Assembly: GCA_903813345.2 (NCBI GenBank)
Contig: CAIIXF020000009.1
Span: forward strand, 4,449,530 to 4,513,529
Direction of reading: 5' to 3'
Source of the DNA: Owenia fusiformis
Taxonomy: Eukaryota > Annelida > Polychaeta > Sabellida > Oweniidae
Length of the DNA: 64,000 nucleotides
Part shown: positions 1,367 through 64,000 of the stretch, one piece after another
Position numbering within the stretch: the first letter of the stretch is position 1
Layout: each line of letters begins with the position of its first letter
Made by a program: the position numbers and the translations under genes
Notes under the pieces: model-generated
Database searches by the model: none
Seen by the model: the letters and a program-made list of their open reading frames with translations, nothing else
Told to the model about the DNA's origin: nothing

Positions 1367-1438
1367 TCCCATATGGTCTAGTGGTTAGGATCCGGCGCTC
1401 TCACCGCCGTGGCCCGGGTTCGATTCCCGGTGTGGGAA
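1367..1438 (+). tRNA. tRNA-Glu (CTC)
   Basis: This is a 72-base cloverleaf. The acceptor arm TCCCATA pairs with TGTGGGA with one G-U. The A-box is TGGTCTAGTGG, and the anticodon loop in GCGCTCTCACCGC gives anticodon CTC. The B-box is GGTTCGATTCC. A TTTT run at 1447-1450 fits a Pol III terminator. It is identical over its full length to the minus-strand copy at 5818-5889, and close to the standard eukaryotic cytosolic tRNA-Glu. Confidence 0.96.
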
Positions 1439-1539
1439 CTGCTTACTTTTATGATCTGCTTAGGTTTCAGCACACAAAGCGGTACAAGGTACTGTATACT
1501 ATCGATACTCGTGCAAACCTAACATTCCCGAAGTGATTC

Positions 1540-4625: not shown

Positions 4626-5427
4626 GTCAATTTTTTAACGACTGTCTTGTCATGTATCATTTCTCTAAGTTGTTGGCAACAAAAAAGGGAAACGGATCCG
4701 TCGGTATAAGTATGAAAAGTGACCAAGGACTTTCATGATCAATATGACATAAATCATTCTGACATAGTGTTCAGGGGCATTCTTTATGTTATTTAGGTCA
4801 CTGTTGCCTCCTAAAGTCAGGACACATCTTAGAATGGACATCCTTGCCGCGTTGAAAATCATCATTTATAAATCAAAAAATGTGAGTATATGATAACGAA
4901 CGTAGAAAAGTACAATGGACCTTGACTTTTGACTTGCAAAAGTAGGTCAAACTTTCCAAAGCTCAAATTTTTGTTTTTAATTTTACATTGGCTCTCTTGA
5001 TTTAACATTGGGATATCATCTTGTATCGACATTCGAAATTTTTAAATGACCTAGAGGTCATGCTCTTTTTAACCTTGGTGACATCCTTGCCATGGCATAT
5101 TCCCGGGGGCATATTCTAGGCATGTCACTGATTCTCCTTGAGGCATTATTCAATACAGTAATGTTATTAATCCACTTTATATAATACTTATACTTATATA
5201 GTATGCCACAGGCCCTGTGCCTAGGTCAGAATTGCTCGATTGAATATTTTGTTCAAAACTGAATACAATTTTGAACAAAGTGCTGAATACTCAATCGGCC
5301 GGGTAGGGCGCAGGACGATGAATCTGGGCACGGCATCCTCGGCCTCACACATAAAATGACGAATCCTTTCAAAAATATTGGGTCAAAATATGGGTGGAAC
5401 CTATCTGAAGCCTAAAGCTCTCATACT
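4626..5427. other. no gene; contains one MITE relative
   Basis: AT-rich sequence with no supported ORF. The segment 5218-5335 starts TGCCTAGGTCA and ends GGGCACGGCA, and has the same palindromic core (ATTTTGTTC, ACTCAATCGGCCGGG) as the MITE at 1696-1835. It is a diverged family member without a clear target duplication. Confidence 0.6.
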
Positions 5428-5500
5428 GGGCTCGTGGCGCAATGGACAACGCGTCTGCCTACGGAGCAGAAGATTCCAGGTTCGAGTCCTGGCGAGCTCA
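5428..5500 (+). tRNA. tRNA-Arg (ACG)
   Basis: This is a 73-base cloverleaf. The acceptor GGGCTCG pairs with CGAGCTC with one G-U. The A-box is TGGCGCAATGG, and the anticodon stem TCTGC/GCAGA closes the loop CTACGGA, giving anticodon ACG. The B-box is GGTTCGAGTCC. A TTTT run at 5504-5507 can terminate Pol III. It closely resembles animal cytosolic tRNA-Arg(ACG). Confidence 0.95.
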
Positions 5501-5817
5501 TTATTTTGCAAGTACCAAAAAATGTTTTTTTCTGTTTGGAGTTTTTGTTAACATACACAACCTCACGGGGGGTCTATCCCCGCTGACATCGCGAGCAATG
5601 ATCCCATGTTAGATTAACAGGTTAAAATAACTGGACTTAGTAGATATATAATGATCTTATTGTACAACTTTCTTGTATCTTTTAAAAAAAGCTAATGAAG
5701 AAAGAGAAAGGGTGAACATCAAATATGTAATTTGGGGAAATTGACCAGCATGTGAAAATATCAAAAGATCAGTTATCTTTTTAATAAGTAATAATATAAA
5801 GATGACAAAAATAGCAG

Positions 5818-5889
5818 TTCCCACACCGGGAATCGAACCCGGGCCACGGCGGTGAGAGCGCCGGATCCTAACCACTAGACCATATGGGA
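5818..5889 (-). tRNA. tRNA-Glu (CTC)
   Basis: The reverse strand is base-for-base the same 72-nt tRNA-Glu(CTC) as at 1367-1438, followed on its strand by a TTTTT run. The flanking sequence differs from the other copy, so only the gene itself is conserved. The pair face each other across the recombinase element and tRNA-Arg. Confidence 0.96.
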
Positions 5890-16406: not shown

Positions 16407-16422
16407 CACAGCTTCCCCAGAT
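16407..16422 (+). repeat. left terminal inverted repeat
   Basis: CACAGCTTCCCCAGAT, perfect inverse of 20239-20254. It begins CACAG, sharing the first five bases of the V(D)J signal heptamer CACAGTG. Preceded by the target duplicate CGAA. Confidence 0.9.
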
Positions 16423-16998
16423 AGCCTCTGCCTGTGTTATTTAGTTCACAGAGCTTGTGAAACCCAATCTGCTGCTTTAATATTCAATGAGCCTGCATTA
16501 ATATTTAATGAGCCTCATTCTGAGTTATTGCCTGGCAACTGATAGCATCATCAGCCATGATGGAGAGTGATGTTTACTTCATCTTACAACTTTCTTCAAC
16601 TATAAACAGTGTTAAGCCATACATCTGGGCAATAAATTATAAGTCTATCTGCTGTCTAACTACTTCTGTGGTCTAAAATCTTGATTTCAAAGTAAAGTTG
16701 ACTTTAATAAATGTGTTATCAGAACCACATGTCTTGTGGGAGTTGAAATCAGAATTTAGTGAGATAAGCTAATGTTCTCTCCACTTTAGCACTAAATATC
16801 TATGTTTCTTGCACGTCCATATCAATGATTTTTCAGATATGTTAACTTTTAAGTGTTCCCTATCAGATTGAAAAGGTTTGAAGTGAGGGGCAAAGCAAGT
16901 TTTCCTGAAATTAATGTTCCAAGTAGATGCCTTAATTAGGATAAGAATTTGTTACAACTTACTCAGTTGATGCTAGATGCTCTGGATGTAATATTTTC

Positions 16999-19800
16999 AT
17001 GATGGATAATCATACAGATCATCACAAATGTGCTTTAGAAACATTATGCAGACTTTGTGGATTAAAAAACAGAGTATTTCGTAAAAAATATGTACCAAAA
17101 TCGTGTACATTGATTCAAGCTGAACTTCTACAGTACTGTCCAGACATAAAGTTAGATTTAGATAATCCAAACATTCACCCAAATAAAGTCTGTGAAAAAT
17201 GCTATAGAACTTTAAAAGATTCAAAGAAGCAGGGAAGAGGCAATGAAAAAAACAAGGACACCAAAGTGAAACATTATGTAAGCATAAATAGCAAATGGAA
17301 TAACATTTCGGATAATTGTGAAGACTGCTGGGTTTGCAATGAATACTCAAATAACAAAGTACTAGGAAAGAAAAGAAAGTTGCCAAATTCGTTGGAGGGC
17401 TGCCCTGTTAGTCCAATAGCTAGTACCCCTAAAAAACAATGCGCTAATATGGACGTCAGTCTTGATATGTCAACGGAAATGACACCTGGCCGTGGGAGAG
17501 AGGCAACAATACAAGAAATTATGTCTAGAAGTATAAATGATCATCTCTCAGTTATGGAGGAAAAGCTACTTACATGTCTTGTAAAGAGAAAATTGAAAAG
17601 CTCTGTTAATAAAGAACAATTGACATGTAAAACCCGGGGAAAGGTATGTTACTTTGCTTTAAAAATCATTATAAGATAATTAAGTAAATATATGTAAATA
17701 TGGAGAATATGATTAGATATAAAGATAAGCTGATGGAAATCTGAAATACTCATACTCAGACATTTGATATCAAAATCCATAGTTTCAAATACAGCTCTTT
17801 TACTAAACGCTAAATTAAATTTATTTCAGCCACTTGTGTTTTTAAGAGTTGAAAGGGCACAGGTCAATTCATCAGTTGCTTCCTCGCCCCTAAAGAGGAG
17901 ACGTGCGAGAAAGATGAATATATATAGAAAAACATCATCTGGGAAAAACAATGAAGCGGTTTTAAAGCAAATATCAAAAGAATGGCTCATTCAGTATCGA
18001 AAAAAGGCAAACAGAGAAACTCTTAACTGTTATGAGAAAAATAAAATCAAGATATCAAGGAAACAAGCCCTAGCAATAAAATCATCCGCCAAATTGTCAT
18101 GGAGACAATTCAAAAACATTACTAGACATTTAAAATCGTGCAATGTTAGTGTAGAAAGTCAAAATAAACAAAGGGAGTACAGGAAGGAATTATTGAAAGC
18201 AATTGATTTGAGAGGGGAAATGATAAAATTAGCAACAAGAAATACTATATCACCAAATTCAAGGAAGGGTAAAGTATACAAAAAATTACCCTTAGCCTAT
18301 ATGAGTGATTTACCTATACATGTACACAACCATTTGGACAAGTTAAACAAATACAATATGTTACAACAAAACGAATCTATTATACCAGAAAACAAAATTT
18401 GGATAAAACTTGGTGGGGACCATGGGGGCAAAAGCCTAAAGATGACTTTACAAATAGTCAATACTGAAAATCCCAACTCGACAAATAATGTGATTGTTTT
18501 TGCAGCGATGAATGCAAAGGACAGCAGGGAAAACCTTGAAACATGTATAGGAAGATATAAGGACCAGATTTTGACATTGCAAAATATGAAATGGCATGAC
18601 AAAACTATTGAACTTTTCATATGTGGTGATTACCTGTTTCTGTGCACATGCATGGGAATTTCAGGGGCAGCTGGTTGTCATCCATGTTTATGGTGCAACA
18701 TAAAATCAGAAAATCTAAAAGTACCACAGAACATGCGAGGAAAGTCTCCATGCAGAACATTAGATAAAATGTCAACTGACTACGAAAAGTTCTCTACTGA
18801 ATCTAAAGGTAAATTGAGTCATGCAAAACTTCACAATAACGTGATTAACAAGCCTCTACTCCCTATAGAGATAGATCATATTTGCCCCCCATATTTACAT
18901 GTCCTGCTGGGTGTTGTGAAAAAACACCATGACCACCTCCTGTCATTATGCCACAGACTTGACCTCCTAATAGCTGATAACATCGCCAGTGAAAACAGAT
19001 TAATTATGGAAAGGGCAGACACACCATATGGCAAATATATCATAGAGACTGGAAAAATTCAAAAATTGAGAGACAAGTTAAATTCAATAAGAAACGAACA
19101 ACAGAGGGAACAATTAAAAACAGAAATTGAAGAAAGGGTAGCAAAAAATACATTAAATGAAGAATCTGGCACTGTGGCAGCAAGTTTAGATGAAACGTTA
19201 AAAAAACACCATATAAACAGAGCTCCATATCACGGCAAGTCATTCGTTGGGAATCACTGCCATAAGTATTTGGACCCCACAGTGTACAATGATGTGTGTC
19301 AAAGTGTTGTCAGGGCTTCAAAGAAAATATGCAAGGGACTAAAAAATGAACGAAAAATTATCAAGAAAGCTGAAAAAATAAGAGAGAGGCTACAAGCTGT
19401 AAATGAAAAATTTTCTTCAGTTCATAAAATGATTTCCCATATGAATTATATAGATGGATCAGACACATCAAATATCCAAGATGCCATAGATGACTATTTA
19501 GATGTTTACAGAGTTTGCTTCCCTAAAGCAAATATCATCCTAAAGCAACATCTGTTAGAAGACCACATGGTTGATTGGATAATAAAATACAAATGTGGTA
19601 TGGGTCTCATGGGTGAGCAGGGAGTGGAAAGTATCCACGCTGTTTACAATGATCTTGGAGATAGAATGCGTGGAATTAAAAACAATTTAAATAGACTCGT
19701 AGCAACCATGACCGAACATTTTGTAAGCTGCCAACCAGAACTATTAACATCAAATCCGATCATCAAGAAACGTAATTTTGTCAAAAAACTTCTGGATTAA
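16999..19800 (+). CDS. RAG1-like transposase, two exons, 871 aa
   Basis: Exon 1 is 16999-17643 and ends AAG|GTATGT; exon 2 is 17830-19800 after TTATTTCAG. Both junctions are phase 0, giving 215+656 residues. The N-terminal zinc region has C17-x2-C20 (LCRLCG), NIHPNKVCEKC (H60, C65, C68), W100, C110-x2-C113 (CWVC) and a basic GKKRKLP, the same order as the RAG1 N-terminal region. The core, in order, has D412 (GGDHGG), D482 (FICGDYLF), C498-x2-C501, D564 (IEIDHI), H789-x4-H794 (HLLEDH) and GEQGVES (E811 or E815). This matches the D-D-ZnC2-ZnH2-E layout of RAG1, Transib and Chapaev enzymes (D600, D708, C727/C730, H937/H942, E962 in RAG1). Such enzymes nick and hairpin DNA at inverted termini. 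No stop or frameshift interrupts it. The first of two adjacent ATGs is taken as start. Confidence 0.9.
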
Positions 19801-20238
19801 TTGTAAGTACATTTTAGTTTATATTCAACATACTATGGTTGGTTGTATAAATCAATTAATAGGCATCTGTAGAAGAGTTAGCTTGCATGGTATGGGGAGC
19901 TTATTGAAAGATATCTCATTTTATGTAGACATTTTGGTGTGATATATTTGGATTTACAAGCTTTGCCCCTCCAATTAAAATTAGTTACATACATAGACCA
20001 TACTTTAAACTAATCATTTTACTTTACAGCAATTTATTCTAGATGCAAAATAATGTAAAAAAGAATAAAGAATAATGCTATAATTTGGTCAAATATTGCC
20101 TTCATAGTGAAACACTGATACTTCCCACTGTACAGCAGATAGGCTTGTAATTGATACTCTGTCTTATCAGAGGCATGCAGTTAAGAAACTTAAGCAGCGC
20201 CACTTGTGGTTAATCTAATAATTACAGCTAAGTATCAG

Positions 20239-20254
20239 ATCTGGGGAAGCTGTG
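20239..20254 (-). repeat. right terminal inverted repeat
   Basis: ATCTGGGGAAGCTGTG, perfect inverse of 16407-16422, followed by the target duplicate CGAA at 20255-20258. Confidence 0.9.
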
Positions 20255-38435: not shown

Positions 38436-41400
38436 TCATATACTGGGAATAGGAAACAACCTAATTGTGCCCCGCATCATTTCAGTAACTACTAGATGAT
38501 TGCCCCCAGCTATACACAAAGCCATGGGCATCTCCAAGGCATCCTCGCGATCTGCGACAAATCCCTGAAAATGCCCGGTTCTAGATAATCGATGGACTCG
38601 ACTGTTCCCCCAATCAGCCACAAAAATACTTCCATGTTTGTCAATACATACGCCATTTGGATGAAGAAACTCCTCGGGTCCCCGACCATGTGATCCATAA
38701 TTGTACAGGAGGTTCCCGCCCGAGTCCTGATAGATACTGACTGAATTAGTTTCTTCGTCTGTGACAACAACTTTTCCGCCTTTCCCTACAGCTATTCCCT
38801 GAGGGGTAGAGAGGTGGGTCCTCTCCCCAACTTGTCTATCCTGTAGAAGCTCACCCCAGATAGTCCCGTTATAAGTTCGTATTTTACTCCCGACTGATAA
38901 CAACAAAGATCCACGGCGATCAACCGTGATACCACGGATATTTTCTCCGACTTCACTCACAACTGTATGAAGTAATACACCAGTTAAATCAAAGCATTTT
39001 ATGCACCCATTGTTTGTGATGTCACACACGAGGATTTTATCTTTGTCCTCCCCTGGTTTTACGATAATTGCACATGGTTTTTCAAGGTCATCTTTACCAA
39101 ATGTGAAATCCAGCTGCCCTGTTTCTAAAGAGAATACCTGAAAATGAATAATAACAAATTACTTTTCAAAATTGAGGTTGATTAACAGATTGATTTGACA
39201 CCGCACTGAAGATTTTGTGAAATGAATTAATTTCAATAATCCCTCGGGCCCATTATATTACATGTTCACACTTAACCTCTCCCACGTGTAAGAAGTAGTT
39301 TTTTTGTTTTGTGTCCCCTTGCTTGCACGATTTTGAATAAATCAGAAAAAACAAACAAATCCAAATAGCGATCACAAGGGTCTGAAAGTACCATCGCGTT
39401 TCGTTCAATCAGAATCAGATGAAATGGTGGATAATTTGATGAGCATCAAAATTGACAATTGATTACTTAGGCATACATTTTCTTATTTTTACCCTTGAAT
39501 AATAGCTATGTTTAAATATATTGTATAAAATGTATAGTTATGTGTTTGTAATCAATGCAAATGAATTGGTATGTCATTCCTTTTTATGACCATAAAATGT
39601 ATTGTGTAAATTCCTGTGTTATATTTTTAATATTTACTATACTTTTGTATTTATATCAATATCAAGGAAATTGAAATAAATTGAAAAAAAAAACACCATA
39701 AAATGTATACATTTTTCAGCAAACAAGTTTGTGTTTTTTCTTGAGTTTGTGTTTGTTTTCCTTGTACCCTTGCATGATTTGGAATTTGCCAGGATGCAAA
39801 ACAAAGAATCTACTTCTAATGGTGTAACTTTAATCGAACACTGGTTCAAAAAAAATCTGGATCTAAATCTGGATCTTACTTTTACATTGTGATTTGTCTG
39901 GTCAAGTGCTGCCACTCTAGTGTTGTCCAACATACAAACCTACAAGTAAAGATACATCAAAATTAATTCAAAATCAATCCTAATTCATTAAAAATCTTCA
40001 CCTTATATACCAAATAAAATGTAATATTTGTCCATAATATGCAATGTGTAATGAAAATTTCAAACAACTGAAACACATCACGTCAACTGAGAGAATTTTG
40101 AAAATTATAATTTCAACATGAAAACAACTGCATGATTCTTAAATACATCAACAATGTCTTGAGTACCTTCTGCTACCTTCTCTTACATTCTGCTAATAAA
40201 ACCTTTGATATATGTACATTTAAAGGGTGGCCATAATGTCCATAACATCTTAGAAAGGCATTAAGATGACATAATCTCATCACCTTGTTAGTTATTGCAA
40301 ATTGTTACAGACAAAGAACAACCAAATGCCAAACACCACAAAAAAGTTGGAAACTAGAGCAATATGTCAACACTTCTGGTGACATAAAACTACAAGAAAA
40401 ATTAATCAATGGTGTACTTACCGAAACTATATAGCAGGGTTCTGTGTCACCCTCAATCTGACCTCTCAAACCCTCCACATAATCCACTTTAAAGTCTGGT
40501 TTAGCACCTTCCTTGTCAACACCTTCAAGGTGCAGCTCCATCACATTGATGACATCTACTAGCCCTGTGGATTCAGCTATCACTAGGAGTTGGACAGAGT
40601 GGCGCTCTATTACTGTAATAGAGGCAGGTCTAATCTGCACCTGGTAAAAAATAAAAAATAACAAATTAGAAATTAAATATCTAGAGGGTATATGAATGTA
40701 CAGACTACAGACTAAGACAAAACTATGCCTGAGATGATAAGATCAATGTGAACACCTGCTAATCAAAACACTTTTGGACAGTCCCTTGGCGTTCAACATT
40801 CACATTTAAGACAGGTTTTAAAGTACATTAAATGAGGAAGGTGTTATTAAAATATGCTAGGCCATTCTACAAGTTTTTGCATTTCTATGAATGGGATTGA
40901 ATGGGGGGGATATGAAAGAAAACATTCAATTCTTAATTCATCTGTGTGTCAAAACATGAAGCTCATGGTCAAAGTCAACAAAAATTTCTTTCTTAATTAA
41001 AACTTACCTTTAATTCCTTAACAGATTCAAAATCAGAATCGACAGCAGTAATCTTGTAGGTCTCTTGATCTGTTACGTAAAGTACCCCATTGCTGTCTAT
41101 CGCAAGGCCCGTGGGGTTCATCCACTCCCCCAGTTCCATGCCGTGTTCCCCAAATGTCCTTATAAAGACTCCTCCAGAGTCATATTTGTAGATGCAACAC
41201 TTTTCCGAGTCAAGAACGAAAATATTTCCATTGTCATTAGACACAACAGCCAATGGACAGCTACCACAAGGGACCAATCGAAACAGTTCTTGCCAGTTTG
41301 AGGCGAAAACTTGAACGTTACGTTTCTCCGGGGACGCAACTACAATATTGCCATTTATGGTTGTGCATATGCTACTCGGCAACAGTAATGTTTCTTTGTT

Positions 41401-44400
41401 TAATTTTCGACCCCATGTCATAACAAATGTGCCGGATGGGTCATATAATTTCAATGTGTTACCATCACATATCACAATACGTCTTTTATCTTGAAGAAAT
41501 GCTAAGGCTGTTGGGACTTGGAGACCTCCTCTGCCAGTTTCCCGTACAACTTTTCCCGAATCAACATTCATAAACTTGACGACTTGGTTGTTTGCGTCGA
41601 GTATAAGAATGTGGTTTCCGTCAAGTGTAGCCAAACTTGATATATGACAGTTCAGTGTATCTTTCACCACTTTGGCCTGAAAAATATAGAATTGTTCATC
41701 ATGTTTTTGGATTGACATTTACTTCTTACGATATATATGCAACAATACTCTTTCCAATATTTCGATTTCGCGGCACCTAATTCCTGAAATACATATAATC
41801 ATTTGTAATTTAGAAAGATTGTTTTACCGTGAATGATCTCCTATCTAGTTTTAATAATTTCTTTAACATAAATTCTTCATAAAATGTGAAATCGAAAAAA
41901 GTCTAAAATTTTATCACAAAATTGGGCCAGAAATTTTAGGAACTTGGCAAAACATTCAAAGGGCAAATCCTTCGAAATAAGTGAAAATCTAATGCCATTC
42001 ACCTGGAACGCCCTAGCGTTGAGGCCCTCTGTGCTGTCACTCTGGTTGGAGCTAGCCTGGGCAGAGGCAGAAGATGAGGGTCCCATTACCATGGAAGCCA
42101 AGTTATTACCACGAGGCCTTGTATCAGGATCAACTCTCAGAGGCCGAGCTATAATGTATGGATATTATAGTTTAAAGGCCAATGTAATGAATGACACGTA
42201 CATTGTATTGTAAATAATGGTTGGAAGTTTTCTTTATATTATTTATATCAGACTTGATGTTAGTATAATGAAACAATAGACTAGATGCGAATAGAAATAA
42301 TCTTGATTTACGCCATAGACAGTGACACCATGTTATAAAATCACAAAAAGTGAAATATCTTTTTTTGTGTCGGGCAGATATTTTCTTTTACCCCAGACAT
42401 ATTTTAATTTGTATAACTATCAGATACACAAGGGTAATATGAAACGTGAATCACTAAAACTGTTGATTATTCAAGTTTAAGGGAATTCTTAATAGTCCTG
42501 CCATGTTATTTCCCCCAAATTAGCCACCTGGTGGTGGAACTGGTAACTACCTACTTGCATCTGAGTAATTAAAGTAAAAGACTAACTCACCCCAACGGTC
42601 ATGCATTTCATTCAGCCTTATCCTAAGTTCATCCCTTTCCTGTTGACGCAGTTCTGCCTCAGTTAGGTATCTCGATCTCGACGGGGCTGGAACTGGGGGT
42701 CGGGGTACAGATCTTGAGGGAATTCTTTGGGATATAGGGTTCCTAACTGTTGAACGAGTATTCTGTGGTACAGAAGATTGCAGCGTACGACTGGAACGTG
42801 GCGGATTTGCGGCCATATGTGCTTGAATACTACTGACCAATCCAAATGAACTTTGGTCATACCTTGTAACCACAACTCCTAGTGGTGACCTTGGGTTGGA
42901 ATCCAATGTCATTGTAGACTCCGTACCTTCTCCCAAATCAATCACATAAATCCCTCCCTGTCCAGTTGTCACGATCAACTCCATGTTTTTCGTTACAGTC
43001 AATGCATATGGATTTTCTGAGTTAAACAAATCCTTAACTGGAGTGTCTATATATTCCCCTAATGGTGATAACCTGACAACTGAAAGCCCCATACAGTCTG
43101 CAACATACACTCTCCCAAGTTTATCTGTACACATACATTTGGGCATTTCAAAATTTGAGTTATCAACATTGTTATATGCCACATTTCCAACATCATTAAA
43201 CGCTAGCACCTTTTTGTTGAAGTCATCAGAAACAAAGATATATTTAGATGTGCTCACTGTGACTGATAAAGGTTTTGTGAGTCCCCCTCTTTTGATATTG
43301 AGAGAGCTTAATAATTGGAACGCTTTACTATAGACATTGACAGATTCCATGTTTTCACACACATAAATTTTCTCATCTGCGTAGGCTATTCCTTCTGGAG
43401 ATTTTAGCTTGCAGCCCCATTTCGAACAGTTTCCATCACGTTGGAAAACTTTAATACAGCCATCTGCCCGATCTGTCACCGCCATCTTGTCCAAATGTTT
43501 TATATATACTGCACTGTGTGGCTCCTTTAATTTCCCAACTCCCATGACACCACTAATTCTCCGTTCTGGAATATTTAAAACCTTCAAGGCACAATTGTTA
43601 CGATCTACGATTATTCCTTTGGTGTCTGACCACATCACAACTGCAGTTAAATAACACCTTTGATACATATCACCTTGTGCTTGGCCTGGGACACGATATA
43701 TAATACTGACACCTCTAGCCGGGTCTAATGCCATTTCTACAGGGGCCTCACTTTGGGGTGCACTTGCTTGAGGCACTCCTGGGGATTCTGGAACAGCATT
43801 GGCTTCATCTGCAGCTTCATTTTGACCTACAGAATTATCACTGGTATCAAGAAGTTCATCAAGGATAGCGTCAACATCTACAGGATTGTGGGTATCGCTG
43901 AATTGTCTTGCAATAGGCCCCATGGTGCTAGGTGCCCGAGGATTCTCAGATGTCCCACTCTGAACAGAGCCATCTATGGGCAGGGCACTTGGCAATGACC
44001 CACTGAGGGTAGTTCCCTCTATGGTTGGGGCACTTGGTAATGACTCAATGAATGGAGCAGCCTCTATGGGTGGGGCACTGGGTAGCGGTAAGTGATCATC
44101 GTTGCGCCTGAAAGTACGGGGTGGAATTGGAGGTGGTCTATCCGAGGCCTGAACAATAGAAGCAGCCGGCTGGTTGTATGGTGTATCTCCCACAGGGTAA
44201 TTCAATAGATTGGGGAGGGAACCACTGGGAGTATAATCTTGCCGAGGTAGCCCTGGGAGTGAAGGAGCACTGGGGGTGTATGCGAGATACTCTGGGGGGA
44301 CAGCACCACCAACTGGAGGGACTCTTGGCCTTTGGATTCCTGGAATAATATGATGGTAAATTTAAACTATGATAAATGAAGTAAAAATAAAACAAAATGT

Positions 44401-47400
44401 CTCACAATACAGATGCCAAATGGTAAATAAACAAGATACCTAATATTTGTGGCCAAAACATTGGCCGTAACAATATGTCACTGCTGCTTTAATGGTGATG
44501 TATCATTGAACAGTAAATATATAATAAAATTGAGTTGAAACAAATTATAGAAGTAATATCAAACTCGTTCATTAAGCGTACCAGTGGTTCGTGTTGATAT
44601 CCCGCTGAATTCAGGAGCAGTTTCCGCCTCATCTAGGAGTTTACTACCAAGGATAGGTGGCGCTACATCAGGGAGATTCTCAATAAGAAAAACTGCAAAC
44701 AAATCCTCCGCAGAGATGTCTGAAGAATCATCATATTTCAGATCAAACAATCTGAGATTTCCTCCTCCAGCTGTATCGAGAACCAAGAGGTAGCGATCTG
44801 AATTTGGCAATATGGCGATGTCATACGGAAGAAATTTTTCTCCAATCTTAAGATTATCAATGATACATTCAGGCTGTCGGTCAACTTCCAGAAAATCACT
44901 GTCGATTTTGTAAATTTTCGACTGTCCACCATCGGCTACATAAATTGTATCATTCATATCAACGCAAACACCCATTGCATGCTGGGATAATTGGAATGTT
45001 TTAAGACGTAACTGTTCATCAGTCTCGAAAATCTTCAGAGTTCCCATCTCCATATCAGTGACTAAGAGCTGGTCTTTACTGTTAAGCGCCATATAGTTCA
45101 CACTATGAAAGTCAAATATATCGGGGTTAAGATCAAATTTTTTTCTCCAATTCGATTCGTAGATCTGTATCGTGCTATTGTATTGCTCGTTTATGATGAT
45201 GTCGCCTTTCCTGTTCTGACGAACAAATCCCGGTTCTTTGAACTTGCTTCCCCACCTAAAAATATACATAAGATTAAATAAGTGTGACTCAAAATTCTCA
45301 TTTCAAGAAAATCAAATGTTATATCATCAAAATGTAATATCTTGCAAAAACCTTTTGGAATTCAGTGTTATATCTATTTTTATATTAATATTGTTAATTA
45401 TAAATGTTAATATTTGTACTAGGTACAACATTGGTATAAAACATATATGCACGCTAGTACAAGTGTTATTAAAGGCAGAATCAGATCTATAGGGGTGACA
45501 AAATTTCAAGCAATATGTACAATTGACCTACCAATCTATTCCTTACAATATCAAATACAATATCCCCCAAAAGATTCATGATATGTTATAAATTGACGAA
45601 GTTATCATGGATTCAAAGTGCGAAATGGGCGAAAAATGTTTATATAAATAAATAAATATTATAAAATTGGAACAATTCTTTGTTGGCCTGCTCGCTAGAT
45701 CTGATTCTCTCTTTAAGGTAGTTTTACAACTAAATTATTGATGAATAAATATTCTTTTTGTATGAACTCTATTCTTATTTTATTCACAAAATCTATATTA
45801 TATGTATGGACATGTCTCATAAAACATATCAACTTTGCTAATAGCATTAATCCACTTGAATAACTCAACTCAATAATTCTATGATATGACGATCCAGAAC
45901 TAAACTTGCTGTATGGAAAATGATCCTGTATATAGATGTAACCGTTGTAATGAATATTTTACCTGGATGCACTTCGAATGTTAGTGTGCCACTGCTATAA
46001 ACACGGGTGTTAAAACACGAATATACCATGAGCACATGCTTTGAGGATCCGCGTTGTTTGAACCTACTGCCGAGCACACTTATACATTAAGACCCGTTAC
46101 ACAGTCATGATACCGCCGAGCAAGCTCATTGCATCATCGGGTCTGCTTTACCCCCGTGTATAAAAGTGTATTCCAAATAAGTAAATAATAAAAAAATAGC
46201 TCATGTACCAACCTATAGCCAGGTTGGCCATCTAAGTTATGAAGATGCAGCACTCCTGTGCTTTCATCACAAACAACCAACTTCTGCAGATGACTCAGGT
46301 ATGTAACACCAGCTGGTCCATTGCCTAAAATATAATATAAACTCTCTTAATAGTGTTCATTGCACACCTCTGTTCCCCTAAGTATGTGACACATGATAGT
46401 CAATCAACCAAAACATGTAAATAAATGCAATATTTTGATATTTTGAATGAGAATTTGGTATGTATAATAATACCCAATACACAAGAATAAGTCAACAAAT
46501 TGAAATAATTCAAAGTTATTTACTTTAAAGTTCTAATGAAATGAAAATGGCAATCCGATTGAAATAATTGGCTCCAATATGAAGGGACTTTGGGTACCCT
46601 CAAGTCAAAATACATAAAAAAAATTACATAATTTTCGAGCCATTTCATTTTCTTGTTAAATATCATAAGCATAGCCAGGGGATGCAATTTGAAGCATCTA
46701 GCTCAAATTTGAAGGAAGTTGCATCAATTTTAATAAAATTCAAAACAAATCATATCTCACCCCCTGACTGAAAACCAAAATTTTTTTAGTGATCACACCT
46801 GCCTGACTGAAAACTAGCTACGCCCCTGAATATCTTTTCATATTGGGTAAACACGTTTATAACATAGCACTATTTCAAGATGTTGGTTAAGGAAAACCAA
46901 AATATTGTTTTTTGAATTGTTACCTTTTGTAGGCCATACTCCAGTGAGTCGCTCCTCCATAAGGTTGACCATCTTAAGACAGCTATTACTCTGTAAGAGA
47001 ATCATACAGATTCAGTTTACATGTTTAACTGCCCTTTGCATTCATTCGACTTCGCTTCTTAAAAGAGGGCTTCGTCTTCTAGTTTATAATTAGACTCTGC
47101 ATGCATTGTAATGTTTTCCACAATGGTAAGAAAACATGACCAGTAAAATACATAATTGGATTTTACCTAAAGAAAAAGAGGGCCTGTAAGTGGTATATGA
47201 ATAGAGGGCTAGTAGTATGTTAGATGGTAGAATGAATGGAGGGCCGCCCTGCAGTTAGTATGGAAATAGGGTGTATAATGAAACCTTTATTAGAGCCAGG
47301 CCAGTATGAGTAATGTACCCAGTCATGAGTAATTCCCAACTGGGTACATGACTGGTGCAAGCTATTCATAACTATTAGGAATACCTCGCACCAGTTAAAA

Positions 47401-57033: not shown

Positions 57034-58140
57034 CTAATTAATTGGCACACCCAAACACGTCAAATGATGGTAAAATCGTTGGAGTATGAATTTATAGAGG
57101 TCGTAATCATCTGCTAACAATTCTCTTATCACAGCAATACTTGTGTTGTCTGGTCGAACCTTATTGTCCCCGACATTTGCATTCTTTGTTGGATTGTATG
57201 CCTCAGTCAATTCATTTTTAAACCTAGGTAAAATAGTCTCCATGGCAACCAATGTTTCATTAAAATGTTCAGTTATTCCAATGAATGTATAATATTCCTC
57301 TATATTGGCTTTAGCTCTTTCGATAGACACCATGGAAGAATTGATATGCATATATTTACCAGAAAACCACTCTGGATACGTTGGTACAATATGTCCCCCT
57401 TTGCATCCCGAGAACGGCCTTGTCTTTAAACACGTTGCAGTGTCTTTGGCACCCCTTCCCATACAACCGGCCTGACGTATCCACAGTCTAAGACAAATTT
57501 CCAGACTTTGCTTAATCTCTTTCGAAGTAAGTTCAAGTCGTTTCCTATGGTACTGGTCTTGCCTGGTATAATAGTACAGTGAGATCCACCTTTCGACGGG
57601 ATCCCGAACTAAGTCTATGAATAAAGGCTGCTTGTATCCCAGTTCCTTAAAATCAAAGAAACCTAAATGTCCCATAAAGATGTATGGCTTTTTAGTAAAA
57701 GGTAGAACTTCATTTTAAACAAATTTCTGCTTGCTTGCAAAGTCTGGTACCTTAAGAACACTTTGTATCACCAAAGGCCATGTATAATGAGTAGAGTATT
57801 TTTCAGAATATTTACAAGCATGCGTCAAAATTTGCACAAAAGTTGTACTTGCACATTTAGATAATTCAGTATAAATTATCAGATCTTCATTCCGATCTTT
57901 TTCTGAATATCCTCCCAGATTGGATCCTTTGCATGTCTGCTGTTTATCCGATCTTTGTTTGGATAACATTGGTAGCATCCTCCTTGGCATCTTCGGACCA
58001 TCTTCGCTCATTTGGATCTCGTCTAATGAGCACATACATGGTGCGTGCGAAGACGTCATAAAACGCCAAACTAACGTAATTGCACTTAAAATTGTTAAAA
58101 TTGCGAAGAAATACTTGTAGTAACGAGAGGAACATGCCAT
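57034..58140 (-). pseudogene. uronyl/heparan 2-O-sulfotransferase-like, one nonsense codon
   Basis: A single reading frame from ATG 58140 to the stop at 57034 (368 codons) is broken only by TAA at 57717-57715 (codon 142). The first part has a short basic N-terminus, a signal-anchor helix (about 8-28, FFAILTILSAITLVW) and the 5'-phosphosulfate box YTELSKCASTTF (K95, S98). The second part has the 3'-phosphate box DLVRDPVERW (176-185), HIVPTYPEWF and the FIGITEHFNETL region. These match the Golgi type II enzymes that move sulfate from PAPS to the 2-O of uronic acids in glycosaminoglycans (UST/HS2ST/pipe family, 350-410 aa). The gene is intronless. The stop may be a true loss, a polymorphism or a sequencing error. 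If translated it would lack the 3'-phosphate site. AATAAA follows at 56992-56987. Confidence 0.85.
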
Positions 58141-62487: not shown

Positions 62488-64000
62488 ATGAAAGAACGGG
62501 GACAGTGGTTTGAACAACAAGGAGGTTACAAAGAAAAATATGCAACAGCAGATAATATTTTTGTTTTACAATCATTAATTCAAAAGTATGTATCAAAGAA
62601 GAAAGGACGTTTATACTGTCTATTTGTTGATTTTTCGAAAGCGTATGATTGTATCCAGCACGATATTTTATAGTATGTTTTAATAAAAAATGGGTTTCAT
62701 GGAAAAAGTCTGAAAGTTCTCAGACACATGTACAGTCAATTACAATCATGTGTTATGACAGAAAATTTTGATCTGACTGAAAATTTTGATTGTTCTATTG
62801 GCTGTCGGCAGGGCTGTATGCTCAGTCCGACAGCATTTGTCATATTTCTAAATGAATATATAAAAATGTGTCAAAACTTAGAAGGCATTTTTGTAGATGA
62901 GAGTTTGCCAAATATTTCTGTAATGCTCTATGCAGATGACCTTGTTCATGTAGCTGACACTGTACCTAGGTTACAGAGACAATTAAATTGTCTATCAAGG
63001 TTTTGTAAACAGTATGGAATGAAAGTAAATATGTCGAAAACAAAAATAATGGTATTTAGAAGAGGAGGTTACCTTAAAGAAACTGAAAAATGGTATTTTA
63101 ACAATGAAAGAGTAGAAACAATCAATGGTTACAAATATTTAGGTATCATGTTTACACCAAAGTTAAAGTGGTCTGGTGCAACGGAATTGCTTGCTGCTCA
63201 AGCTAGAAAATCATGTAATATGCTTAAGGTAATGTTCAAAAAATGTTCAACTATTGAGCCAAGTGTTGCATTCAAACTTTTTGACAGTATGGTAACACCA
63301 ATTTTGCTGTATGGGTCAGAAATTTGGGGCTATTATAATGTAAACTCAATTGAAAAGGTCCAAATAAATTTTTGTAAATTTTTATTGAAGTTAAGGGATA
63401 ATACTCCAAATGCCACAGTACTAGGTGAAGTAGGGAGATACCCTATGGAAATACTTTATAAAGCAAGATGTATCAAATTTTGGTTAAAAATTATAATGAT
63501 GCAAGATACAAGATATCCTAAGCGTGTTTACAGTATGCTATATAATCTAGATGGAGCAGGCAGAGTAACCTGGGCAACAAAAATTAAAGAGGTATTGAAC
63601 AATCTAGGTTTTGGATATGTGTGGTTAGCTCAAGGAGCTAGTTGGAAATGAAAATTTATTTTTGTTACATTTTAAGCAAAGATTAAAAGACTGTGCATAT
63701 CAAAATTGGTTAACCAGCACACAAAACTCAGCAAAGCTCCAGCATTATTGTATTTATAAGACTAAGTTAGAATGTGAAAAATATTTATCTTGTATTAAAC
63801 ATTTCAAGCATAGAAAAGCATTAACACAATTTAGATGTGGAGGTCATAACCTGCAAATTGAGGTAGGACGATGGGAAAATATTCCAAGAGAGCTACGTCT
63901 TTGTAAATACTGTTTAACAAATGATAAAAACATTGTAGAAGATGAATTCCATTTTATCATAGAATGCCCATTGTATGAGTTTTTAAGGAATAACTACCTA
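62488..64000 (+). pseudogene. decayed LINE reverse transcriptase, runs off window
   Basis: Starting inside the RT domain, the frame shows LFVDFSKAYDCIQHDIL, an in-frame TAG (62671-62673), then GCRQGCMLSP, the catalytic LYADDLV and YKYLGIMF thumb-like sequence, ending at TGA 63649-63651. A one-base frameshift near 63640 restores the family sequence (GNENLFLLHF), which continues to the window end through RLCKYCLTNDK and EFHFIIECPLY, the C-terminal cysteine/histidine motif. It has no endonuclease in this window and begins just after the nested MITEs, so it is 5'-truncated. It is distinct from the intact LINE at 22-25.6 kb. Confidence 0.88.

Follow-up and report, generated by a model that had tools for sequence, protein, structure and literature searches.

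Structure and copies of the transposon

The DNA analyzed here is a window of 64,000 nucleotides (4,449,530-4,513,529 on contig CAIIXF020000009.1 of the annelid Owenia fusiformis), to which all positions refer unless another locus is named. It contains, at 16407-20254, a transposon of 3848 bp with one two-exon gene encoding a protein of 871 amino acids (Table 1). The element is very probably an autonomous cut-and-paste transposon of the Chapaev group and belongs to one of at least eight two-exon families in this genome. Its protein is related to RAG1, the enzyme which shuffles antibody genes in vertebrates.

A complete transposon had been proposed in the original prediction, and direct reading confirmed the perfect 16-bp terminal inverted repeats (TIRs), which form an inverted pair without mismatch (CACAGCTTCCCCAGAT), as well as the CGAA duplication. 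As a chance control, both 2-kb flanks were resampled 300 times with an order-1 Markov model. The real flanks contain one CAC..GTG pair that matches at 13 or more of 14 positions and has a 4-bp duplication, and the 300 resamplings contain none.

The two exons are joined in phase 0 over a GT..AG intron and give 871 residues free of stops across 17643|17830, ending at a TAA codon (19798-19800), so that the gene is intact as claimed. In the list of open reading frames (ORFs) the two frames appear with 226 and 678 codons, which comprise the exons and read-through into the intron. All N-terminal zinc motifs and core motifs named in the prediction were found in the protein. No RAG2-like frame is present inside the element, where the other ORFs of at least 60 amino acids are all antisense (129, 107, and 67 amino acids). 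Just inside the left end, at 16472-16519, a 21-bp unit is repeated 2.3 times, which could be a candidate binding site of the transposase.

The genome (498 Mb in 525 contigs) was searched for relatives. Protein searches resulted in at least 70 matches for exon 2 and at least 51 for exon 1, where one element may give several. Fifteen elements were examined, namely that of the window and 14 fetched loci, with eight distinct two-exon families among 13 of them. Of the 15, 12 have inverted ends of the CAC..GTG type and a duplication of exactly 4 bp, the weakest ends being those of L037 (11 of 14 letters). The scan for these ends demanded CAC and GTG and is thus blind to others; the ends of the window element, however, had been named beforehand. 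The duplications vary in sequence, and none of these 12 elements has a 5-bp duplication. They include three near-identical groups: the window element with L025 and L038, L027 with L028 and L029, and L031 with L033.

The window element differs from L025 (C7) at 8 of 3848 aligned bases (99.8% alike) and in two residues of the protein, and from L038 (C4), the frame of which is interrupted, at 16 of 3838 aligned bases (99.6% alike) and by 10 gap columns. The three copies occupy separate sites with different duplications (CGAA, CATA, and TCTA). The left 294 bp of the element matched the genome three times, each time in a full copy, and no non-autonomous copies were found by this search. Near-identical copies with differing duplications and only three left ends point to a recent, low-copy movement of the window element.

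A direct sign of insertion with a 4-bp duplication was obtained for a sister family, represented by L030, whose core is 53% identical to that of the window element. The joined flanks of L030 with a single TGTC match two genome places uninterrupted at 100%, and identity is 96-99% at most of the remaining places among the 40 that were scored out of 1846 candidates; these places belong to a high-copy repeat.

L037 (1434-5959 of its locus) is a more distant relative with the duplication GTAC. Its ends begin with CACAGTA and share six of seven letters with CACAGTG, the heptamer of the recombination signal sequence.

The N-terminal zinc domain, the core and the intron

Exon 1 encodes three CxxC pairs (C17/C20, C65/C68, and C110/C113). 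Sequence searches with this domain were run against 177,635 distinct PDB sequences. A profile of eight families placed RAG1 first (E 9.6e-5, next match 0.075), and a profile of 15 members matched three RAG1 sequences (E 4.3e-12, 2.6e-10, and 2.6e-10), followed by an unrelated one at 0.0041. A profile search had been set beforehand as the test on which the predicted RAG1-like N-terminus should stand or fall, and the prediction was borne out. The match covers residues 98-221 of the 1040-residue RAG1 chains and pairs the motifs CRxCG, HPxxxCxxC, and CxxC, so that all three CxxC pairs are aligned. The six cysteines are invariant in the eight-family alignment, and C65 and C110 are nearly so in the 15-row alignment. 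At the level of the family profile, not of the window sequence alone, the N-terminal half is shown to be homologous to RAG1 at about residues 98-221.

The 15 rows were chosen among the 51 matches obtained with exon 1; of seven loci fetched later, L047, which looks near-identical to L037, and the broken L048 were left out. The RAG1 importin binding model PF12560 matches 13 of the 15 members at E≤1 (best 6.2e-10). In the genome it exceeds its curated cut-off at five places, at least two of which (C8 and C9) adjoin cores from the exon 2 search. Furthermore, zf-AD (PF07776), the model of the ZAD domain, matches 12 of the 15 members at E≤1 (best 7.5e-8), the window protein scoring 15.5 bits, below the cut-off of 28. 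In RAG1, the corresponding central non-core domain (residues 87-217) is reported to hold two zinc ions, for which C110/113, C175/178, and C210/213 are the likely ligands, and is described as binding DNA and taking part in nuclear localization (PMC3124419).

The core is encoded by exon 2. Its conserved residues, in numbers of the full protein, are D412, D482, C501/C504, the LH pair 571-572, H789/H794, and E811 or E815, and the series D, D, C(2)C, LH, H(4)H, E is invariant in all nine aligned cores. E815, which lies within a predicted helix, fits better as the catalytic glutamate. The second D is followed by the CxxC motif after 19 residues, the same spacing as from D708 to C727 in mouse RAG1. 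In Pfam, exon 2 matches DUF1280 (PF06918, E 5.9e-17), as do 9 of 9 rows of one alignment and 14 of 17 rows of a second, overlapping one, which includes fragments. The core profile found no RAG1 or Transib chain in the PDB up to E 10, and Pfam scans of the core gave no RAG1 core match. A genome search with the RAG1 core model PF12940 gave no match, but this profile was equally silent on controls, and the result does not speak for an absence.

A core model was predicted from the 17-row alignment (pLDDT 83.7, pTM 0.77). With this model, all 47 Foldseek matches at E≤0.001 are RAG1, RAGL, or Transib, starting from 1e-14, and the next match follows at 0.12. In VIA, the best Z is 27.7 for RAG1 (454 residues, root-mean-square deviation 3.8), 24.0 for BbRAGL (466 residues, 6.2), and 23.5 for HzTransib (404 residues, 3.8), with the P element transposase next at 10.4. 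Z rises with length, and over the aligned ranges the paired residues amount to 454 of 549 in RAG1 and to 404 of 460 in Transib, so that the higher Z does not clearly make RAG1 the closer of the two. The core is thus predicted to be an RNase H-fold DDE transposase of the RAG1 kind, and the original assignment of a RAG1-type core holds by predicted structure, not by sequence profile.

The intron place is shared by 13 of the 15 elements: in the window element, L025-L035, and L038, which represent eight families, the exon 1 frame stops at the same place and in phase 0 before a GT, and the exon 2 frame opens after an AG, with introns of 183-296 bp. The boundaries were placed by homology to the window element, except that for L034 the boundary was put one codon ahead of the match by eye. 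Intron junctions were inspected in all 15 of these elements, and in the additional seven loci not systematically. L036 is intronless at this place: a single open frame of 890 codons (889 aligned) spans both its N-terminal domain and its core. L037, intronless there as well, has a frame of 546 codons that runs from the N-terminal domain into the initial part of the core. GT..AG-like gaps are present elsewhere in L037 and L043, in the former within the core after the 546-codon frame. In addition, across nine families the pairwise distances of one half correlate with those of the other (Spearman 0.84, a value reached in 6 of 5000 permutations), which is partly driven by the divergent L036. The N-terminal tree is weakly supported and its topology is unlike that of the core tree. 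The spliced transposase of the original prediction thereby gains support from the kept intron and from the single frame of L036, on a comparative basis and not from RNA.

Placement among related transposons

Chapaev DNA transposons reportedly go back to Kapitonov and Jurka in 2007. Their hallmarks are given as 3-4-bp duplications, CAC..GTG ends, and the motifs C(2)C, LH, and H(4)H (PMC4079192). Chapaev and Chapaev3 transposases are described as carrying a Chapa domain, a truncated form of the N-terminal part of RAG1; in the same source, Chapaev is one clade within a broadly drawn Transib superfamily (PMC4411706, 2015), and the name Transib is used here for the clade proper. The elements agree in the 4-bp duplication (12 of 15), the CAC..GTG ends, and a DDE core with all three motifs (nine of nine cores). 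The RAG1-related N-terminal domain agrees as well, recognized via its similarity to RAG1 and not via a Chapa model. Two Chapaev subgroups are reported to carry a RING (PMC4411706), whereas the Pfam scan found no RING after the N-terminal domain of the window protein. The families found here are sequence families of their own, likened to Chapaev by its published description. Chapaev3 shares the motifs and, according to PMC4411706, the Chapa domain, but has 3-bp TWA duplications (PMC4079192) instead of varied 4-bp ones.

Upstream of a Chapaev first exon at L045, two cysteine-rich frames (4743-5084 and 5147-5464, both on the reverse strand) look RING-like by eye; a Pfam search with them gave no match at E≤0.1.

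Several observations weigh against the placement as a transposon of the Chapaev group with one spliced, RAG1-related protein. The placement itself rests on published hallmarks and not on a tree with reference Chapaev elements, and the joining of the exons is deduced from comparison and not from RNA. TIRs and duplications of L034, L035, and L036 were not found in the fetched flanks, and a genome search for an empty site of the window insertion matched its flanks only to themselves. Exon 1 of the window alone matches RAG1 as its sole PDB hit, at a non-significant E of 2.8, and the window member matches PF12560 weakly (E 0.087). Three of the 15 profile rows (L043, L044, and L046) are also PF12560 places and lean to RAG1, a bias which is limited, since all 15 places were already in the exon 1 search and the eight-family profile (E 9.6e-5) predates the PF12560 search. 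The N-terminal domain was modelled poorly (pLDDT 67.7), and the folds listed as nearest to the model, with a weak Z of at most 4.7, are ZAD crystal structures and not RAG1. Structural searches with this poor model listed weak ZAD and SAP30 matches; RAG1 was unlisted and is not thereby excluded. Finally, the remaining HzTransib states reach a Z of only 15.2-17.4 with the core model.

The original designation as a RAG1-like transposon could not be kept in the sense of RAG, RAGL, or Transib. A true transposon of the RAG/ProtoRAG type (RAGL or Transib) that has lost its RAG2-like gene would account for the RAG1-like N-terminus (E 4.3e-12) and for a RAG1-fold core with a Z above that of Transib. 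RAGL elements such as ProtoRAG likewise have N-terminal zinc motifs and a RAG1-fold core in a single protein and ends beginning with CAC, and three N-terminal zinc motifs are described for most protostome RAG1L proteins (PMC7204232). In the same source, however, RAGL is characterized by 5-bp duplications, a RAG2L gene, and a core that can be aligned with RAG1 by sequence, whereas the 12 elements with recognized ends all have 4-bp duplications, no RAG2-like frame lies inside the window element, and RAG1 and Transib are missing from the profile and Pfam results of the core. The higher Z carries little weight given its growth with length (see above). Transib shares the CAC ends and the core fold (best Z 23.5) but is described with 5-bp duplications and without the N-terminal region (PMC7204232), in contrast to the 4-bp duplication and the domain found here. 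Such an origin is therefore rated as very unlikely. Slightly less so, but still improbable, is another lineage of the CMC group (Mirage, CACTA/EnSpm) or a distinct sister lineage outside Chapaev proper. The DUF1280 match may permit it, and C(2)C and H(3-4)H are common to EnSpm, Mirage, Chapaev, Transib, and RAG1 (PMC12730594). It is opposed by the combination of a 4-bp duplication with CAC..GTG ends, LH, and H(4)H (PMC4079192), and by the RAG1-like N-terminus, which, according to a report of 2015, no transposable element then known outside the superfamily of Chapaev encodes (PMC4411706).

The remaining alternative concerns the gene. By chance, a RAG1-N-terminus-like gene, comparable to N-RAG-TP of Aplysia, might lie beside an unrelated transposase, giving two proteins. 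The exons are indeed separate open frames and their splicing is deduced by comparison, but order, intron place, and phase are constant in 13 of the 15 elements from eight families, both halves lie inside one pair of ends in 12 of the 15, their distances correlate, and L036 carries them in a single uninterrupted frame. A chance neighbourhood is very unlikely on this evidence, and a single spliced Chapaev transposase is preferred.

Proposed mechanism, RAG1 ancestry and neighbouring features

The single spliced gene would yield the 871-residue transposase, and the element may still be active at present. By analogy to RAG1 and Transib, a dimer would bind the inverted ends starting with CAC, and the RNase H-fold DDE chemistry would nick the DNA and then cut the second strand at CAC. 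Strand transfer to a target staggered by 4 bp would then generate the 4-bp duplications. The three-CxxC zinc domain and the following basic stretch probably contribute to DNA binding and/or nuclear entry, while a catalytic role of this domain is not expected. With its near-identical, apparently intact copies, the element offers a protein on which one could test what the N-terminal domain does for a transposase.

Two accounts exist for the N-terminus of RAG1. In the first one, a Transib was fused with N-RAG-TP (PMC8355894, 2021; PMC13337447, 2026). In the second one, Chapa domain and core had already been fused in an ancestor shared by Chapaev, Transib, and RAG (PMC4411706, 2015). The families examined have kept the N-terminal domain joined to the core even where identity falls to 20-34%, and the account of an ancient shared fusion is therefore favoured by these comparisons. 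N-RAG-TP is a transposon-borne protein like the N-terminus of RAG1 and, by description, contains this N-terminal-like sequence only (PMC8355894), whereas the core follows in the next exon of the element described here. As the first exon of this element holds exactly that domain, N-RAG-TP may correspond to a Chapaev first exon without the second. If so, this offers a simple reconciliation of both accounts.

On a wider reading, which is tentative and stays somewhat short of even odds, the two-part plan of three-CxxC zinc domain and RNase H-fold core is older than the divergence of Chapaev from Transib and RAG and was inherited as a whole. Transib would then have lost the domain, no fusion of Transib and N-RAG-TP would be needed, and the domain may share its origin with the ZAD of animal zinc-finger regulators. 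The ancient fusion within this reading was already proposed in PMC4411706; N-RAG-TP as a first exon is the new step. Literature searches found no published link between RAG1 and ZAD; PMC4999995 names both separately and, where it does so, unlinked.

The element fits existing ideas of RAG1 ancestry and does not overturn them. The presence of both halves in one protein, the main point of the original prediction, had been published for Chapaev (PMC4411706) and for RAG1L (PMC7204232). The present analysis adds copies that are nearly identical and apparently intact, finds several families side by side in one genome, supports the exon join by comparison, puts numbers on the link to the RAG1 domain, and predicts the fold of the core.

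Table 1. Positions of the transposon parts and of other features in the window.
Feature	Position	Strand	Remarks
Left target site duplication, 4 bp, CGAA	16403-16406	.	read directly
Left TIR, 16 bp, begins CAC	16407-16422	+	read directly; copies L025 and L038 end alike
Exon 1, residues 1-215	16999-17643	+	RAG1-related N-terminal zinc domain, basic GKKRK stretch, linker
Intron, 186 bp, GT..AG, phase 0	17644-17829	+	found at this place and phase in 13 of 15 elements
Exon 2, residues 216-871 and stop	17830-19800	+	predicted RAG1-fold DDE transposase core
Right TIR, 16 bp	20239-20254	-	read directly
Right target site duplication, CGAA	20255-20258	.	read directly
tRNA Glu(CTC)	1367-1439	+	
Frame, 215 amino acids	1916-2563		
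Tyrosine recombinase frame, 391 amino acids	2434-3609	+	PF00589
tRNA Arg(ACG)	5427-5501	+	
tRNA Glu(CTC)	5817-5889	-	
LINE-like frame, 1197 amino acids	22028-25621	-	reverse transcriptase, PF00078
Four clustered frames	38436-45269	-	
Frame with borderline sulfotransferase match	57037-57675	-	PF03567
Reverse transcriptase frame	62728-63651	+	PF00078

Outside the transposon, further frames were identified in the window. The tyrosine recombinase frame (E 3.9e-11) is likely a mobile-element gene and is overlapped by the frame of 215 amino acids, for which no Pfam match was found at E≤0.001. The frame resembling a long interspersed nuclear element (LINE) is located about 1.8 kb past the transposon and matches a reverse transcriptase (E 7.6e-25), as does the frame near the end of the window (E 1.6e-17). 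The sulfotransferase match has an E of 1.9e-4. In the cluster of four frames, weak NHL-repeat matches were found in both frames tested.

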